Positions 2,105 to 11,887 of a stretch of DNA of 11,887 nt are shown in pieces. The translations under genes and the position numbers were made by a program. This stretch comes from Verrucomicrobiota bacterium (GTDB lineage Bacteria > Verrucomicrobiota > Verrucomicrobiia > Chthoniobacterales > UBA10450). Location: NCBI GenBank assembly GCA_003218345.1, contig QHNF01000045.1:1-11887 (forward strand), read 5' to 3'. The first letter of the stretch is position 1. Each line of letters opens with the position of its first letter. The notes under the pieces are model-generated. The model made no database searches and had not been told where the DNA came from. It saw only the letters and a list, made by a program, of their open reading frames with translations.

Positions 2105-4759
2105 TTGAGACTGCCCAACACATATCTGAGGCCCCCGCCGGGCTACCGCTTTCGACCGCCCTGGTATTCCAGGCCGTGGTTCTACCTTCCCGTCGTCGTC
2201 ATTGCAGTGTTGGCCATTACCTTGACAGTTTACATTTCCAGTCTGGTAGCCGACCTCCAAGCACAGGCCAGAACGTTCGATCTAAACCAGCTCGAACAAA
2301 TGGAATCAGCGAGCGTGATTCTCGATCGCAACGGCAAGATCTTCGGCCAAATCTATGTTGAGAACCGCGAGACGGTGCCGTACGACCAGTTGCCTCCCGA
2401 TCTCGTCAAGGCTGTTGTGGCGGTCGAGGATGCAAAGTTTTATCAGCACCACGGCTACGATTTGCTCGGGATCATCCGTGCAGCACTTAAGAATTTGACG
2501 GCCGGCCATGTGCGCCAAGGTGCAAGCACGATTACACAGCAACTGGCGCGCAACAGTTTTTCGCTCAAGCAAAAAACGTTTCGCCGCAAGCTGCTCGAGT
2601 TTTTTCTGGCGCAACGAATCGAAGAGCACTTCGGCAAACAAAAAATCATGGAGCTGTATCTGAACCGGATTTATTTCGGAGGCGGGCTTTATGGAGCGGA
2701 AGCAGCGGCGCGAGGTTACTTCGGCAAGTCCGCGCGCGAAATGTCGCTGGCGGAATGCGCCACGCTCGCGGGCCTGATCAAAAGTCCAAACAGGTTGTCG
2801 CCGTGGACGGATCGCGCCGCTTCACGTGAAGTGCGCGACTATGCGCTCGATCGGATGCGCGATCTTGACTTCATCAGCCGTGAACAATACGCCGATGCGC
2901 GCGCGCAGGAGATCGTCATCGGCAATCGGCAAAACGCGCAGGGACAAACCTACGCGGTCGATTACATCCGCCAGCAGGTAATCGCGGCAGTCGGATGGAA
3001 CCGCGCGATGAACGAAGGCTTTCGTATTCACACCACCATCGATGTCGATCTGCAAAAGGTTGCTGAGGATTCTCTCCGGGCCAATCTCGACCGGATTGAG
3101 AAGAATGCTGACTACAACCATCAGACTTATGCCGATTATGCGGCCACTTTTCGCAAAGCAAAAGCAAGTGGCACGATGTCTGATCAGCCCGCGCCAGAGT
3201 ATCTTCAAGGCGCGGTGATCGGCCTGGACAACGCAACAGGCGATATTCTGGTGCTCGTGGGCGGGCGTGATTTCGAGCACAACCAGTACGACCGCGCACT
3301 GCAAGCCCGCCGACCCGCTGGGACAGCGATCTTGCCGTTCGTTTATGCGGCTGCTTTTGAAAAAGGAATGTTTCCCGGATCGCTTGTAGAAGATTCGCCG
3401 CTGGACAATCGCGCGGTCATGATCGGTGGCACAACAGGAATTCTTGGCGAATGGGGACCTGAAAGCGCTGATAACCGCTATGAAGGCGCGATGACAGCCA
3501 GGCAGGCGCTGGCCAAATCAAAAAATGGCGCAACCGTCCGCATTGGAATGAACGCGGGAATCGATTCAGTCCTGCAGCTTTGCTCCGCTGCAGGCATTCG
3601 TTCCCCGCTTCGTCCTTATCCGGCCACGTTTCTCGGCAGCAGCGAGGTCACTCTGGCCGAGCTCGCGCTCGCGTACACTATATTTCCAAACGGCGGCTGG
3701 CGGCCAAACTCATCACACATTTTGGAACGCATTGAAGAAAAGGACGGAACACTGGTTTGGGACGCAAAGCAGGAGAGCATTCGGAAACTAGTCATTAGAC
3801 CTGAAACCGCGTACGAAGTGCATTCCTGTCTTGTAGACGCACTCCAATCGGGCACTGGAAAAGCTGCCTTCACGCAATTTGGTCTGAAGAGAATGCCCGC
3901 GGCGGGCAAAACCGGCACCGCGTATGACTTTACCGATGCTCTGTTTGCCGGATACGATTCCAATTTTGCTTGCGCTGTTTGGGCCGGCTTCGACAAGCCG
4001 CAGAAGATTTATCGCGGCGCATTTGGGCGCGAGCTCGCCCTGCCGGTTTGGGCCGATATCATGAACGCCGCCGCTCAGCGTTATCCGCCGCGAGAAATCA
4101 AACAGTCGGCGACTCTAAATCAGGTCGAGATTTGTTCGAGGTCCGGCCTACTCGCCACCGACAAATGTTATGACGCCGTGAAAACGGCAAACGGCGATAC
4201 CGTTCAGCGACGCACTACCTACATGGAAATTGCGACACAGTCGCAAGCGCCTACCGAGCCTTGCAATGTCCACGGTGAAGCGCGCGCGCGCCTTGCTCGC
4301 GATTTTCCTTCCAGCGATTTGCCGCGCGCCGCTCTCGCTGTGGACCTGAGCGAGGTCATGCCAGTCGCAATAAAAACTCCAACGTTGTTAGCCGACAAGG
4401 ACCCCTACAATTCTCTTAAGTCGACACTGAAACCCGAGCCAGCGCCGCAGGCCGAAAAAGAAATCGCCGAGAGACGAAAGACCGGCACGGAAACCGACGC
4501 CGATCGGACAACCCCGGTCCCGGTAAGGGCGGTTGACCCCAGTCGCCCGGCGGGAGAGACCAGCCAACCTGCAGGAGAAACGGCTAATCAGACCGCGCAA
4601 TCGGTTATCCCGATCAGAAAAGCGATCCCAGTCCAACCGCAGGATAAAAAGCCAGTCGAGATCCGGCGTGCGATACCAGTCAAACCGCTCGATCAAGAGG
4701 AAGAGGACAAGACGCTGTTGAAGGCGGCGACGCCGCAGCCGAGCGATCTGGACGAATAA
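2105..4759 (+). CDS. Class A penicillin-binding protein (PBP1-type) with degenerate transpeptidase active site
   Basis: The protein has 884 residues. Residues 26-48 form one membrane anchor after a short basic, proline-rich cytoplasmic tail. Residues about 75-240 are a GT51 peptidoglycan glycosyltransferase: EDAKFYQHHG 109-118 (catalytic Glu109), GASTITQQLARN 139-150, RKLLE 161-165 (second Glu165) and a LYLN/YFGGGLYG segment near 184-197. This domain polymerises lipid II into glycan strands in the periplasm. Residues about 365-660 are a transpeptidase fold with SxN (SKN 472-474) and KTGT 602-605, but the place of the catalytic SxxK reads TAIL 407-410 ('RRPAGTAILPFVY'), so nucleophile and general base are both missing. 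A two-cysteine segment with a distal CxxH (677-723) is common in PBP1 proteins. Residues about 725-884 are a charged, proline-rich tail with the repeat 'RKAIPVQP'/'RRAIPVKP'. Start is TTG; an in-frame TAG at 2090-2092 rules out a start further upstream, and the first ATG would remove the anchor. Confidence 0.93.
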   Translation: MRLPNTYLRPPPGYRFRPPWYSRPWFYLPVVVIAVLAITLTVYISSLVADLQAQARTFDLNQLEQMESASVILDRNGKIFGQIYVENRETVPYDQLPPDLVKAVVAVEDAKFYQHHGYDLLGIIRAALKNLTAGHVRQGASTITQQLARNSFSLKQKTFRRKLLEFFLAQRIEEHFGKQKIMELYLNRIYFGGGLYGAEAAARGYFGKSAREMSLAECATLAGLIKSPNRLSPWTDRAASREVRDYALDRMRDLDFISREQYADARAQEIVIGNRQNAQGQTYAVDYIRQQVIAAVGWNRAMNEGFRIHTTIDVDLQKVAEDSLRANLDRIEKNADYNHQTYADYAATFRKAKASGTMSDQPAPEYLQGAVIGLDNATGDILVLVGGRDFEHNQYDRALQARRPAGTAILPFVYAAAFEKGMFPGSLVEDSPLDNRAVMIGGTTGILGEWGPESADNRYEGAMTARQALAKSKNGATVRIGMNAGIDSVLQLCSAAGIRSPLRPYPATFLGSSEVTLAELALAYTIFPNGGWRPNSSHILERIEEKDGTLVWDAKQESIRKLVIRPETAYEVHSCLVDALQSGTGKAAFTQFGLKRMPAAGKTGTAYDFTDALFAGYDSNFACAVWAGFDKPQKIYRGAFGRELALPVWADIMNAAAQRYPPREIKQSATLNQVEICSRSGLLATDKCYDAVKTANGDTVQRRTTYMEIATQSQAPTEPCNVHGEARARLARDFPSSDLPRAALAVDLSEVMPVAIKTPTLLADKDPYNSLKSTLKPEPAPQAEKEIAERRKTGTETDADRTTPVPVRAVDPSRPAGETSQPAGETANQTAQSVIPIRKAIPVQPQDKKPVEIRRAIPVKPLDQEEEDKTLLKAATPQPSDLDE

Positions 4760-6073: not shown

Positions 6074-6163
6074 CCGTTTGCTATAACCACGGATGCACTC
6101 GAATCGAGACGTAATGCCCGGCTTGCCGAAGCCGCAGCGGACAGTAGCATGTGGTCCATCCTT

Positions 6164-6553
6164 ATGGCCGAGCGCACACACGACTGGTTCAGACAGGCCG
6201 AGGCGGATTTGCGCCTCGCTCGCACTGCGCGCGACGCTGGGCATTACGAGTGGTCTGCTTTTGCCTGCCAACAAGGCGCCGAAAAAGCCATAAAAGCGCT
6301 CTATCAACATCTGCACAAGGATGCGTGGGGTCACGTTTTGATCGCGCTGCTAGGCGCGTTGCCGGAACAAGCAAAGCCCGATGCCGACTTAATGGATCGT
6401 GCGAGAGTGCTCGACAGGCATTACATCCCTACACGTTACCCAAACGGTTTTGAACGCGGCGCACCGCTGGATTTTTATTCGCAAAAAGACGCCAACGAAG
6501 CAATTGCAAACGCGGAGGCAATCCTTGCGTTCTGTCGAAATCAGATCGGTTGA
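6164..6553 (+). CDS. HEPN domain protein (putative RNase toxin of a HEPN/MNT pair)
   Basis: This 129-residue protein is a small all-helical HEPN domain. The start 'MAERTHDWFRQAEADLRLA' and the central 'WSAFACQQGAEKAIKAL' (30-46) are the hallmark helices, and the C-terminal 'ARVLDRHYIPTRYPNGF' carries the R-x4-H motif (Arg81, His86) that forms the composite RNase site in HEPN dimers. Tyr87 and Tyr92 beside it are candidate targets for AMPylation by the partner. A longer start (ATG at 6149) adds MWSIL; I prefer 6164 because homologues of this type begin close to this point. The partner nucleotidyltransferase follows 65 bp downstream on the same strand. Pairs of this kind act as toxin-antitoxin modules in several bacteria; whether this one is toxic is not known from sequence. 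An RNA-binding accessory role without toxicity is an alternative. Confidence 0.88.
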   Translation: MAERTHDWFRQAEADLRLARTARDAGHYEWSAFACQQGAEKAIKALYQHLHKDAWGHVLIALLGALPEQAKPDADLMDRARVLDRHYIPTRYPNGFERGAPLDFYSQKDANEAIANAEAILAFCRNQIG

Positions 6554-6618
6554 TATTTGGTAGGTCGCGACCGAGCCTCCCCTGAACAAAGCCGAATGGG
6601 GGCGCGCCGCTTAGGACG

Positions 6619-6999
6619 ATGTCTCAGTCTATCGAAATCAAATCCGTTGATGCGGAACAAGTGCGCCGCTGCATGGACGAGTACGCGGCCCGGCTCCTTG
6701 CGAGCAACCCTGCGGTCGAAGAAATCATCGTCTTCGGCTCGTTCGTCGAAGACACTTACGCCCCGGGAAGCGATCTGGACGTGTTCATTGTCCTCACCAG
6801 CGCACAACAGCGGCCGCGTGACCGAATCCCGGATTTTCTGCCAAACAGATTTCCAGCGCCGATGGACATTTTTCCATTTACGCGCGCAGAGATGGCAGAA
6901 TTGGATTCATCGCCTCTGCTTGTGGCAATCAGGAAAAGCAACTGGCGCTACAAGCGATCAGGGACGCCAGCCGATCGGGACCCACTCGCGACAGAATGA
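6619..6999 (+). CDS. Minimal nucleotidyltransferase (MNT) domain protein, putative antitoxin of the HEPN/MNT pair
   Basis: The 126-residue protein is a pol-beta superfamily minimal nucleotidyltransferase. It shows the full signature GS-x10-DxD: Gly40-Ser41 in 'IIVFGSF', then Asp52 and Asp54 in 'PGSDLDVFIV', with a third acidic residue at Asp83 ('PMDIFPF'). An intact metal-binding triad suggests it can transfer a nucleotide, by analogy with MntA, which AMPylates and silences its HEPN partner. A short AGGA lies close before the ATG (6613-6616). The gene follows the HEPN gene on the same strand, so co-transcription is likely. Its stop codon runs directly into a heptamer array (7002-7022). The charged C-terminal end after 'KSNWRYKRSG' looks like a plain tail. 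Confidence 0.88.
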   Translation: MSQSIEIKSVDAEQVRRCMDEYAARLLASNPAVEEIIVFGSFVEDTYAPGSDLDVFIVLTSAQQRPRDRIPDFLPNRFPAPMDIFPFTRAEMAELDSSPLLVAIRKSNWRYKRSGTPADRDPLATE

Positions 7000-10215: not shown

Positions 10216-11887
10216 TTACAAATTCGTGATTACGACAAAGGGCAAGATCGACAATGCACCTGCAACGGATACGTGGTGCCGTTGATGCTGAATTGGCCGG
10301 CAGGTAAAGAGGTCATGTGCGTGCGCCAGCGAAAGCGTTTCGGGAAATTCTATTGTTGTATCTTTCCATCGCTCACCAATCGGTGGAAAACCAATGCGCG
10401 AAGAGAGCCGAGGTGCAATCACAACGATCCATTTGTCCGCCAGCGAACGCGCAAAGCTGACGCAGCATTCCATAAATGTTCCGCTCGGTGTCAGGGGCAG
10501 ATATTCTCCACGCTGGAAAAGCTCGAAGTGCTCGCGCCGAAATTGCAACAGACGCTGGGTTAGAAACATTTTGATCCGACCATCCGGCCAACTCCGCGGA
10601 AGTTCCTCAGGATTCACTGTTGCGAGCGATTCGAGCATTTCACGACGCCGCTTGTAATCCACCGGGCGTCGGTTATCCGGATCCACCAGGCTGTAGTCCC
10701 AAATTTCGTTACCTTGATAAATGTCAGGCACGCCCGGCGAAGTCAGCTTGAGCAGTGTTTGTGTAAGCGAATTGATCGCGCCAAAGCGCGCAATCTCCTG
10801 CGCAACCGGAATGAACACCGAAACGAATTTATTCCGCGGCGACGGATCCAGAATTTTCGTGACGAAATCGCGCATTGCCGCGTCCCATTGTTCGTTAGGT
10901 TGAATCCAGCTGGTATTGATCTTCGCTTCGTGAAGCGCCTTGTGCATGTACGCTTGAATCCGCTCCACGTACTCGCATGTCGGCACTCGCTCCGGTTCAC
11001 CGGAAGCGTGGATCGGCCAGGTCCCGAGTAATGTCTGGTAGAGCAGGTACTCCTCATCTGCGTCCGGCGCTTCCGCGTCGTTGATGGTCCGCTTCCAACG
11101 GCGATTACTGACGCGCCACCGTTGCAACGAACGCTGCCAAAGCTCCGGGATTTCGGAAATCGCAGCTATCCGGGCCCGCACATCTTCGCTGCGTTTTGTA
11201 TCGTGCGTTGAGGTGGCAAGCAGGGTTGCCGGCCACTTGCGTTGTCGATCGAGATTACGTTCGTGGAAGGCGTCGACGTCCATTCCGAACTGCTGCGGCT
11301 CGCCGCCCACTTCATTTAACGCCGCTAGCCGGTTGTAAATGTAAAACACCGTGTCCTCCAGCCCCTTGGCCATTATTGGTCCCGTAGCCTGTTGAAACTT
11401 CAGAACGAAGTGCGTGTGCGCAGCGCGTTCTTTGGCATCGAGGTTTGGCGGAAAGCGAAAAAGCAGCACGTCGCGGAGAAAGTTGAAAATCGATTCTTCC
11501 ATCGCTGGATTGCGGCGCTTGGCTGCGACGATCGCGCGTTCCACGATTTGCCGATCGTCCTCGGTCACGGGCTGCCCGGGCGCGAGATACGTCCGGTAGA
11601 CGGGAAAACAAGCGATGGTCTCGCGCACGGCGCGCGAGAGCGCCTCGAGTGTGAAGTCGCGATACCACCGGTTTTGCTCGGAGAGCCGGTCGAGCATGTT
11701 GCCCAGAACATCGACGTCATTGGCCAGGGACAATTTCATTACTTGCAGTTTTTTCGCATAAAGCAGATGCCCAAACGGCATCGAGTGGGCGATAAAACGA
11801 TGGAACGTTTTTGTGATCCCCGTTTCGGCCGAGGAATCGACCAGCAACTGCGCCACCTGATTTGCAAAGTCGTACCCAGTGGTACCA
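10216..11887 (-). CDS. treY: Malto-oligosyltrehalose synthase (C-terminal part; 5' end beyond the window)
   Basis: TreY turns the reducing end of a malto-oligosaccharide into a trehalose unit, which TreZ then releases; the product protects against drought and osmotic stress. About 556 residues are visible, in frame to the right edge, beginning 'GTTGYDFANQV', a typical internal TreY sequence. Further GH13-type TreY motifs follow: 'CFPVYRTYL', 'IMAKGLEDTVFYIYNRL', 'ATSTHDTKRSEDVRARI' (its Asp is the third catalytic acid of the family) and 'GVPDIYQGNEIWDYSLVDPD' with 'NRRPVDY'. The C-terminal beta domain ends at TAA next to an inverted repeat. A GTG at 11856 could be read as a start but lies inside the conserved region, so the gene is cut by the window and not truncated. 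The catalytic nucleophile region lies outside. Confidence 0.95.
   Translation of the reverse strand, partial: GTTGYDFANQVAQLLVDSSAETGITKTFHRFIAHSMPFGHLLYAKKLQVMKLSLANDVDVLGNMLDRLSEQNRWYRDFTLEALSRAVRETIACFPVYRTYLAPGQPVTEDDRQIVERAIVAAKRRNPAMEESIFNFLRDVLLFRFPPNLDAKERAAHTHFVLKFQQATGPIMAKGLEDTVFYIYNRLAALNEVGGEPQQFGMDVDAFHERNLDRQRKWPATLLATSTHDTKRSEDVRARIAAISEIPELWQRSLQRWRVSNRRWKRTINDAEAPDADEEYLLYQTLLGTWPIHASGEPERVPTCEYVERIQAYMHKALHEAKINTSWIQPNEQWDAAMRDFVTKILDPSPRNKFVSVFIPVAQEIARFGAINSLTQTLLKLTSPGVPDIYQGNEIWDYSLVDPDNRRPVDYKRRREMLESLATVNPEELPRSWPDGRIKMFLTQRLLQFRREHFELFQRGEYLPLTPSGTFMECCVSFARSLADKWIVVIAPRLSSRIGFPPIGERWKDTTIEFPETLSLAHAHDLFTCRPIQHQRHHVSVAGALSILPFVVITNL

Follow-up and report, generated by a model that had tools for sequence, protein, structure and literature searches.

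Class A penicillin-binding proteins (PBPs) are assumed to crosslink the strands that they make, and surveys such as PMC8406291 sort bacteria by whether an aPBP gene is present. The closest described relatives of the protein considered here are the PBP1A-type class A PBPs (TIGR02074; solved structures 4oon, 3udf and 5u2g), which join a GT51 glycosyltransferase (GT) domain to a transpeptidase (TP) domain with the motifs SxxK, SxN and KTG. Mgt (TIGR02070) polymerises glycan without crosslinking it and has no TP domain. In E. coli, the engineered variant PBP1b S510A, whose TP half is dead for want of its nucleophile and whose GT half is kept, still provides the polymerisation on which crosslinking by the L,D-transpeptidase YcbB depends (PMC5089857), which shows that the two tasks can be divided in this way. 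Loss of aPBP genes has been reported for several PVC bacteria, with Akkermansia scored as having an aPBP (PMC8406291); the part of that paper available to us yielded no comment on the active-site motifs of aPBPs. A Tn-seq study of V. spinosum lists class B PBPs and SEDS and, in the text at hand, no class A protein (PMC12283558). The multidrug resistance of Ca. Udaeobacter in soil is attributed by its authors to beta-lactamases and efflux (PMC7343977). No description of the protein family reported below was found in the full-text literature, whose coverage leaves out most subscription papers and supplements.

The window analysed here, a stretch of 11,887 nucleotides from a Verrucomicrobiota genome, carries on its forward strand a class A PBP-like gene at 2105-4759, and all features of this gene given below lie on that strand. 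The frame encodes 884 residues from a TTG codon, the true start possibly lying one or two codons downstream, and the protein reads RRPAGTAILPFVYAAAFEKG. The GT51 domain (residues 77-251, 2333-2857) matches PF00912 with an E value of 1e-62 and contains Glu108 (2426-2428) and Glu165 (2597-2599), which we take to be the catalytic pair of GT51. The TP domain (residues 369-618, 3209-3958) matches PF00905 with an E value of 4.9e-18 and 65.8 bits against a cut-off of 22.1, and includes the SxN motif as SKN (residues 472-474, 3518-3526) and a KTGT motif (residues 602-605, 3908-3919). The protein passes the PBP1A family model TIGR02074 (518.4 bits, cut-off 508.75) and fails that of Mgt, TIGR02070 (154.1, cut-off 182.65). 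In an alignment to the solved class A PBPs, their GSSFKPF, GSTIKPF and GSSIKPF (4oon, 3udf, 5u2g) fall on GTAILPF, so that the SxxK site at 3323-3334 reads Thr407-Ala-Ile-Leu410, Thr407 being encoded by ACA (3323-3325) and Leu410 by TTG (3332-3334). The original prediction, that the SxxK place reads GTAILPF in a frame open for 884 codons with SxN and KTGT kept, is thereby confirmed, positions included. Between the SxxK and SxN sites lies a segment specific to the family, DNRAVMIGGTTGILGEWGPE (residues 434-453, 3404-3463), whose residues 443-447 form an insert that canonical class A PBPs lack, and a C-terminal segment with Cys677, Cys688, Cys720 and His723 (4133-4273) is invariant in a 17-row alignment.

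The protein is thus like the PBP1A-type enzymes in its GT51 and TP domains, GT residues, SxN and KTG, and differs from them by lacking SxxK (TAIL at 407-410) and by having the insert at 443-447 with its flanks, DNRxVMIGG..GILGEWGxE. By descent and architecture it is a member of the PBP1A family; judged by the defining SxxK, it is predicted to be no functional transpeptidase and presumably no penicillin-binding protein, and we think that it works like a GT-only class A synthase. It would then resemble Mgt in polymerising glycan without crosslinking, but Mgt has no TP domain and the window protein has one.

The replacement turned out to be strongly conserved, although not in the form that had been anticipated. 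Among the best 120 of 4716 homologues found, one of which is the window's own sequence, position 407 is Thr in all 120 and position 410 is Leu in 119 and Ser in one; SxN reads SKN in 104, SKD in 14, and SKG and SNN in one each, the KTG motif reads KTGT in 117 and KSGT in three, and none has a full SxxK. A wider set comprises 169 rows from 167 genomes including the window's (141 of its order and 26 of the families f15 and f18); membership was defined by the insert, a test that three further Thr rows (L020, L131 and L155) failed, being either truncated or variable at the insert. In this set, position 407 is Thr in 159 rows and Ser in 10, and the Lys slot is occupied by Thr (64), Leu (54), Lys (28), Val (13), Ile (4), Ala (2) and by Ser, Gln, Gly and Phe once each. 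The conserved state is therefore Thr and not T-x-x-L, the Lys slot being free and still occupied by Lys in several lineages: conservation of T-x-x-L holds for the close relatives, and across the wider family only Thr is near-constant. Over 170 rows, Thr407 is encoded by ACG (73), ACC (56), ACA (18) and ACT (13), the other 10 having AGC for Ser, and its maintenance through four synonymous codons points to selection on the residue.

The GT51 residues are kept wherever they are covered, as had been expected: Glu108, Glu165, Asp109, His115, Gln146, Arg161, Lys162, Lys178 and Asn187 are the same in 167 of 168 family rows, the remaining row having a gap. In the TP half, Lys602 of KTG is found in 166 of 168 rows and Thr605 in 161 of 168, and the insert is nearly invariant. 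The SxN motif is looser, with Gly or Ala in place of Ser in 67 of 169 rows; its Asn is kept in 142 and lost in 27, of which 20 have Ile, and in f15 and part of f18 it is replaced by Ile, Val, Leu or Thr. The Lys inside SKN, Lys473, is specific to the family (162 of 168 rows, vs. Arg in 33 of 34 canonical rows), as is Tyr607 after KTGTA, where canonical Verrucomicrobiae rows have Asn or Asp. All 28 rows with Lys in the slot have SKN and 74 of the 141 others keep the Ser, but a tree-aware pair test of this co-variation, which had only 6 pairs, was not significant.

Purifying selection acts on both halves of the protein to the same degree. Median pairwise dN/dS in the window's genus (14 sequences, TP taken as residues 369-640) is 0.047 for both the GT domain (91 pairs) and the TP domain (89 pairs), as compared to 0.078, 0.182 and 0.097 for linker, N-terminus and C-terminal tail, respectively, and the canonical paralogue of the same genus (5 sequences, 10 pairs) gives 0.044 for each domain; these ratios are rough because synonymous distances are large, about 1.2-1.4 on average in the GT and TP domains. 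By these estimates, constraint in the window's genus is as strong on the TP domain as on the GT domain, which agrees with the selection on GT51 and TP that had been proposed, and a domain so constrained after losing its catalytic residues has the marks of a pseudoenzyme. A decaying or sequencing-damaged paralogue might have been suspected from the lost catalytic motif and from the fragmented state of many of the genomes, but the gene is conserved across the order and two further families of the class, the window copy has no internal stop, and its TP domain shows the low dN/dS just given. Decay or error is hardly credible on this evidence and was rejected, and the Thr in all 120 best homologues and in 159 of 169 family rows bears out the view that the change is no sequencing slip.

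A second possibility is that the TP domain remains catalytic through Thr407, with another base, e.g., Lys602 of KTG or Lys473 of SKN, in place of the missing Lys. The constancy of Thr407 and Lys602 and the family-specific Lys473 would suit such chemistry. However, the Lys slot accepts nine residues besides Lys, and this variation, together with that of the SxN Ser and Asn, shows that the remainder of the known catalytic network has not been maintained. A comparison of residues 360-649 with canonical proteins gave no Ser, and no Lys other than Lys473, that is both family-specific and conserved in at least 90% of rows, so a substitute Ser/Lys pair does not appear from the alignment. We know of no Thr nucleophile in this transpeptidase fold. 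A search of the full-text literature for TXXK together with penicillin-binding also found no paper, and we regard catalysis by Thr407 as improbable.

The reading that we favour, and consider quite probable, is that of a PBP1A-type synthase whose GT half polymerises glycan, whose TP half is a conserved dead pseudoenzyme, and whose strands are crosslinked by other enzymes. Judging from its intact and invariant residues, the GT51 half would polymerise lipid II into glycan strands. The TP half would form no acyl-enzyme with stem peptide or penicillin according to established PBP chemistry, since the nucleophile position is Thr and, in the window's lineage, the Lys base is missing. At the sequence level, strong selection maintains the fold and that end of the cleft where KTG lies, and the TP half may hold a stem peptide or a partner protein uncut, the former possibly at KTG and the latter at the DNRxVMIGG..GILGEWGxE segment; so bound, it could position the nascent strand or gate the GT half. 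The original prediction of a glycan-only polymeriser with the transpeptidase fold kept as a scaffold seems to stand in its first part, for which motif loss, selection and the presence of a canonical paralogue all speak; its second part is harder to square with the mostly kept KTGT and the conserved Thr407, for which a purely structural scaffold has no use.

Within this reading, the ligand of the TP half may be stem peptide and not a partner protein, the domain then acting on the GT half as a sensor or allosteric switch. We hold this as a tentative but real possibility, to which the retained Lys602 and Thr605, the SxN Asn in most rows and the nearly invariant insert between SxxK and SxN would lend themselves, but the Asn is replaced in f15 and part of f18, and the far paralogues L224 and L225 have no KTG at all. 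Two observations run against a wholly dead TP domain. Every one of the 20 TxxK rows in the order has SKN, with KTGT in 19 and KSGT in one, and these rows might keep residual chemistry. Members of the genus g35 as well as row L261 carry the full SxxK/SKN/KTG, so the fold can still host a site that is probably active. Homologues with SxxK are thus absent among the best 120 and are seen in one more distant genus, g35, and in L261, whose place in the tree is weakly supported.

The history of the site was followed on a tree of 82 rows built with the motif columns removed; 37 rows had been dropped beforehand (including near-duplicates, four outgroup rows, and L224, L225 and L221 with their long branches), and rows from a scan of named genomes had been added. 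The family forms a clade (support 99/92 with the long-branched L287, 95/93 without it) whose sister group is the clade of canonical class A proteins from Verrucomicrobiae (100/99). The insert is present in 56 of 56 rows of the family as defined by the tree, and the 26 rows outside it all have SxxK, with a gap at the insert in 25 and an unrelated stretch in L311; the standing of the insert as a family mark rests on this clade, the sets of 169 and 168 rows having been sorted by the insert itself. In contrast to the engineered PBP1b S510A, which keeps its Lys, this family lost the motif naturally and long ago, and the loss extends through much of the class.

Genus g35 is nested in family f6, whose other members have Thr; of its 10 genomes, eight have SxxK and two SxxL. 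A tree that groups all Thr rows of the order without g35 is rejected (p-AU 0.0039, the group having been named after the tree was seen), and Ser/Thr parsimony needs three changes when free and 11 separate losses if regain is disallowed. The nested position, the topology test and parsimony together make it most likely that Ser was regained in g35; its codon is AGC in all 10, one base from ACC. The Lys of g35 was probably kept from TxxK ancestors in f6, where parsimony counts seven changes when free and 12 if Lys is never regained. The placement of L261 is weakly supported (80/54), so both Ser and Thr are compatible with the founder of the family.

The family is widespread in the order, 132 of whose 147 genomes have a locus at an E value of 2.6e-174 or better, with weaker matches only in 12 and none in three. 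It shares about 38-43% identity with the canonical class A paralogue. Among the best 80 loci from the scan of named genomes, 42 rows have the insert, 40 of them with Thr, the other two being L261 with SAFK and L287 with SAFL; the insert rows are from Verrucomicrobiota except L281, and the other non-Verrucomicrobiota rows, 33 in number, all have SxxK. L281 (RFPR01000027.1) is labelled Proteobacteria, is close to Spartobacteria-labelled copies and is probably a mislabelled MAG. Akkermansia-labelled rows belong to the family, and the Asn of SxN is often Ile there as well. Outside the class, the best match reached only 4e-44 among 240 genomes of the phylum, with at most three candidates scored per genome. 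Within the class, 97 of 189 genomes have no GT51 match (E 0.001), including families f16, f17 and others, which fits the aPBP-less PVC bacteria of the literature.

Several further degenerate proteins were seen alongside the family. L224, L225 and L283 represent another paralogue of 686-707 residues with TAFL, a similar insert and a still more degenerate transpeptidase, in which KTG is replaced by WGGT, FSGS and YGGI. In L276, L279, L280 and L313, a second protein of 551-608 residues directly follows the canonical class A gene; a domain search of the one from L280 gave GT51 and transpeptidase-domain remnants, the SxxK site reads SAFE in L279, L280 and L313 and PILS in L276, and these are perhaps another pseudo-transpeptidase lineage in Verrucomicrobiales. 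L284, an open frame of 1351 residues, comes from a MAG labelled V. spinosum; its motif sites read ENGALLQPF and AGMSGYS, and it would be a class A-like protein without the three motifs, if the alignment holds.

In the favoured reading of a GT synthase with a dead TP half, the strands would be crosslinked by class B PBPs, by the canonical class A paralogue and, probably, by the many L,D-transpeptidases, and such enzymes are at hand in the window genome (2.39 Mb, 81% complete). A second class A protein with an intact SxxK, which had been named as something to look for, was found on contig C112 (GSAFK). It represents the canonical Verrucomicrobiae paralogue of the sister clade, present in this and other genomes, which has GT51 and TP domains like the family but differs from it in keeping SxxK, in lacking the insert and in being shorter (about 720-745 residues where uncut in the window's genus). 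The same genome encodes two class B proteins, each with GSTFK (contigs C45 and C237), SEDS genes on contigs C404 and C324, and 12 YkuD hits, with the SHGC motif in four of the five that were read. The C324 SEDS gene (FtsW/RodA-type) is matched twice, in different frames, which may reflect a frameshift in the assembly. On contig C54, at 10922-11272 (L003), the contig end truncates another copy of the window gene, of which an N-terminal part with 79% identity is left; it is either a recent paralogue or a strain mixture.

The number of YkuD proteins raises a reading compatible with the favoured one, namely, that the family arose as a GT-only partner of L,D-transpeptidases because YkuD enzymes do most of the crosslinking in these bacteria. 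YkuD hits number 4-16 in 99 genomes of the order (completeness at least 90, contamination at most 5, the pair of 0.9-Mb genomes excluded); the 16 genomes tested from f15 and f18 have 9-18. In the 99 genomes the count rises with genome size. Once size is allowed for, g35, where Ser was probably regained and where SxxK was seen as in no other genus of the order, lies lowest among 35 genera (residual -5.06). Within f6, six g35 genomes have 6-7 YkuD hits vs. 7-15 in 17 others, and four less complete g35 genomes have 4, 5, 6 and 6. Similarly, the SxxK genome of L261 has 10, compared with 14, 14, 14 and 19 in four others of 6.2-6.5 Mb; the other two of the seven genomes in this comparison (2.2-2.5 Mb) have 5 each. 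Five f17 genomes without a class A match have 1-2 each. However, g35 is one clade and one contrast noticed after the fact, the TxxT genus g2 is nearly as low (4 hits, residual -4.34), and two f16 genomes without any GT51 match still hold 6 each. YkuD enzymes have other tasks as well, such as the anchoring of proteins. The g35 pattern is a lead, and a dominant L,D-transpeptidase partnership appears possible but rather doubtful; a limited search of papers found no wall-chemistry data for these bacteria. A bolder version appears unlikely on present evidence: an ancient, class-wide pseudo-TP PBP whose GT half is coupled to L,D-transpeptidases would form a beta-lactam-insensitive wall route, and g35 would have reverted Thr to Ser while its L,D-transpeptidase set shrank. 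If true, abundant soil and gut bacteria would have beta-lactam-insensitive wall synthesis.

On the favoured reading of a polymerising GT half with a dead TP half, strand synthesis by the pseudo-TP enzyme should continue under beta-lactams, and the presence of a class A gene alone does not imply crosslinking in these bacteria. The family offers a natural test of the roles of the TP domain besides catalysis, and of the possible return of a catalytic serine once it has been lost. It also bears on the multidrug resistance of Ca. Udaeobacter, near which we would guess the window genome to lie.

The commonest recurrent neighbour of the gene is the cluster of a Methyltransf_28 gene that lies divergently at 805-2003 on the reverse strand, split over two frames (805-1602 and 1620-2003). 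Single-linkage BLAST placed related ORFs in 59 of 119 loci, Pfam confirmed one of them as Methyltransf_28, and the cluster suggests no wall function to us. The other window neighbours recur in few of 140 loci, whose flanks were mostly of 2-4 kb so that neighbours may lie beyond them: the 4868 ORF in 6, KpsF in 5 and EF-P in 2. Two small ORFs within 6149-6999 of the forward strand are arranged like a HEPN/MNT pair, the first (6149-6553) being HEPN-like by eye and the second (6619-6999) matching NTP_transf_2. Just upstream of the PBP gene, at 1975-2072, repeated CAACGCTCAATGCTCAACGCTCAAG and GGACGTTGAACGTTGAGCG were seen by eye, perhaps an intergenic repeat.
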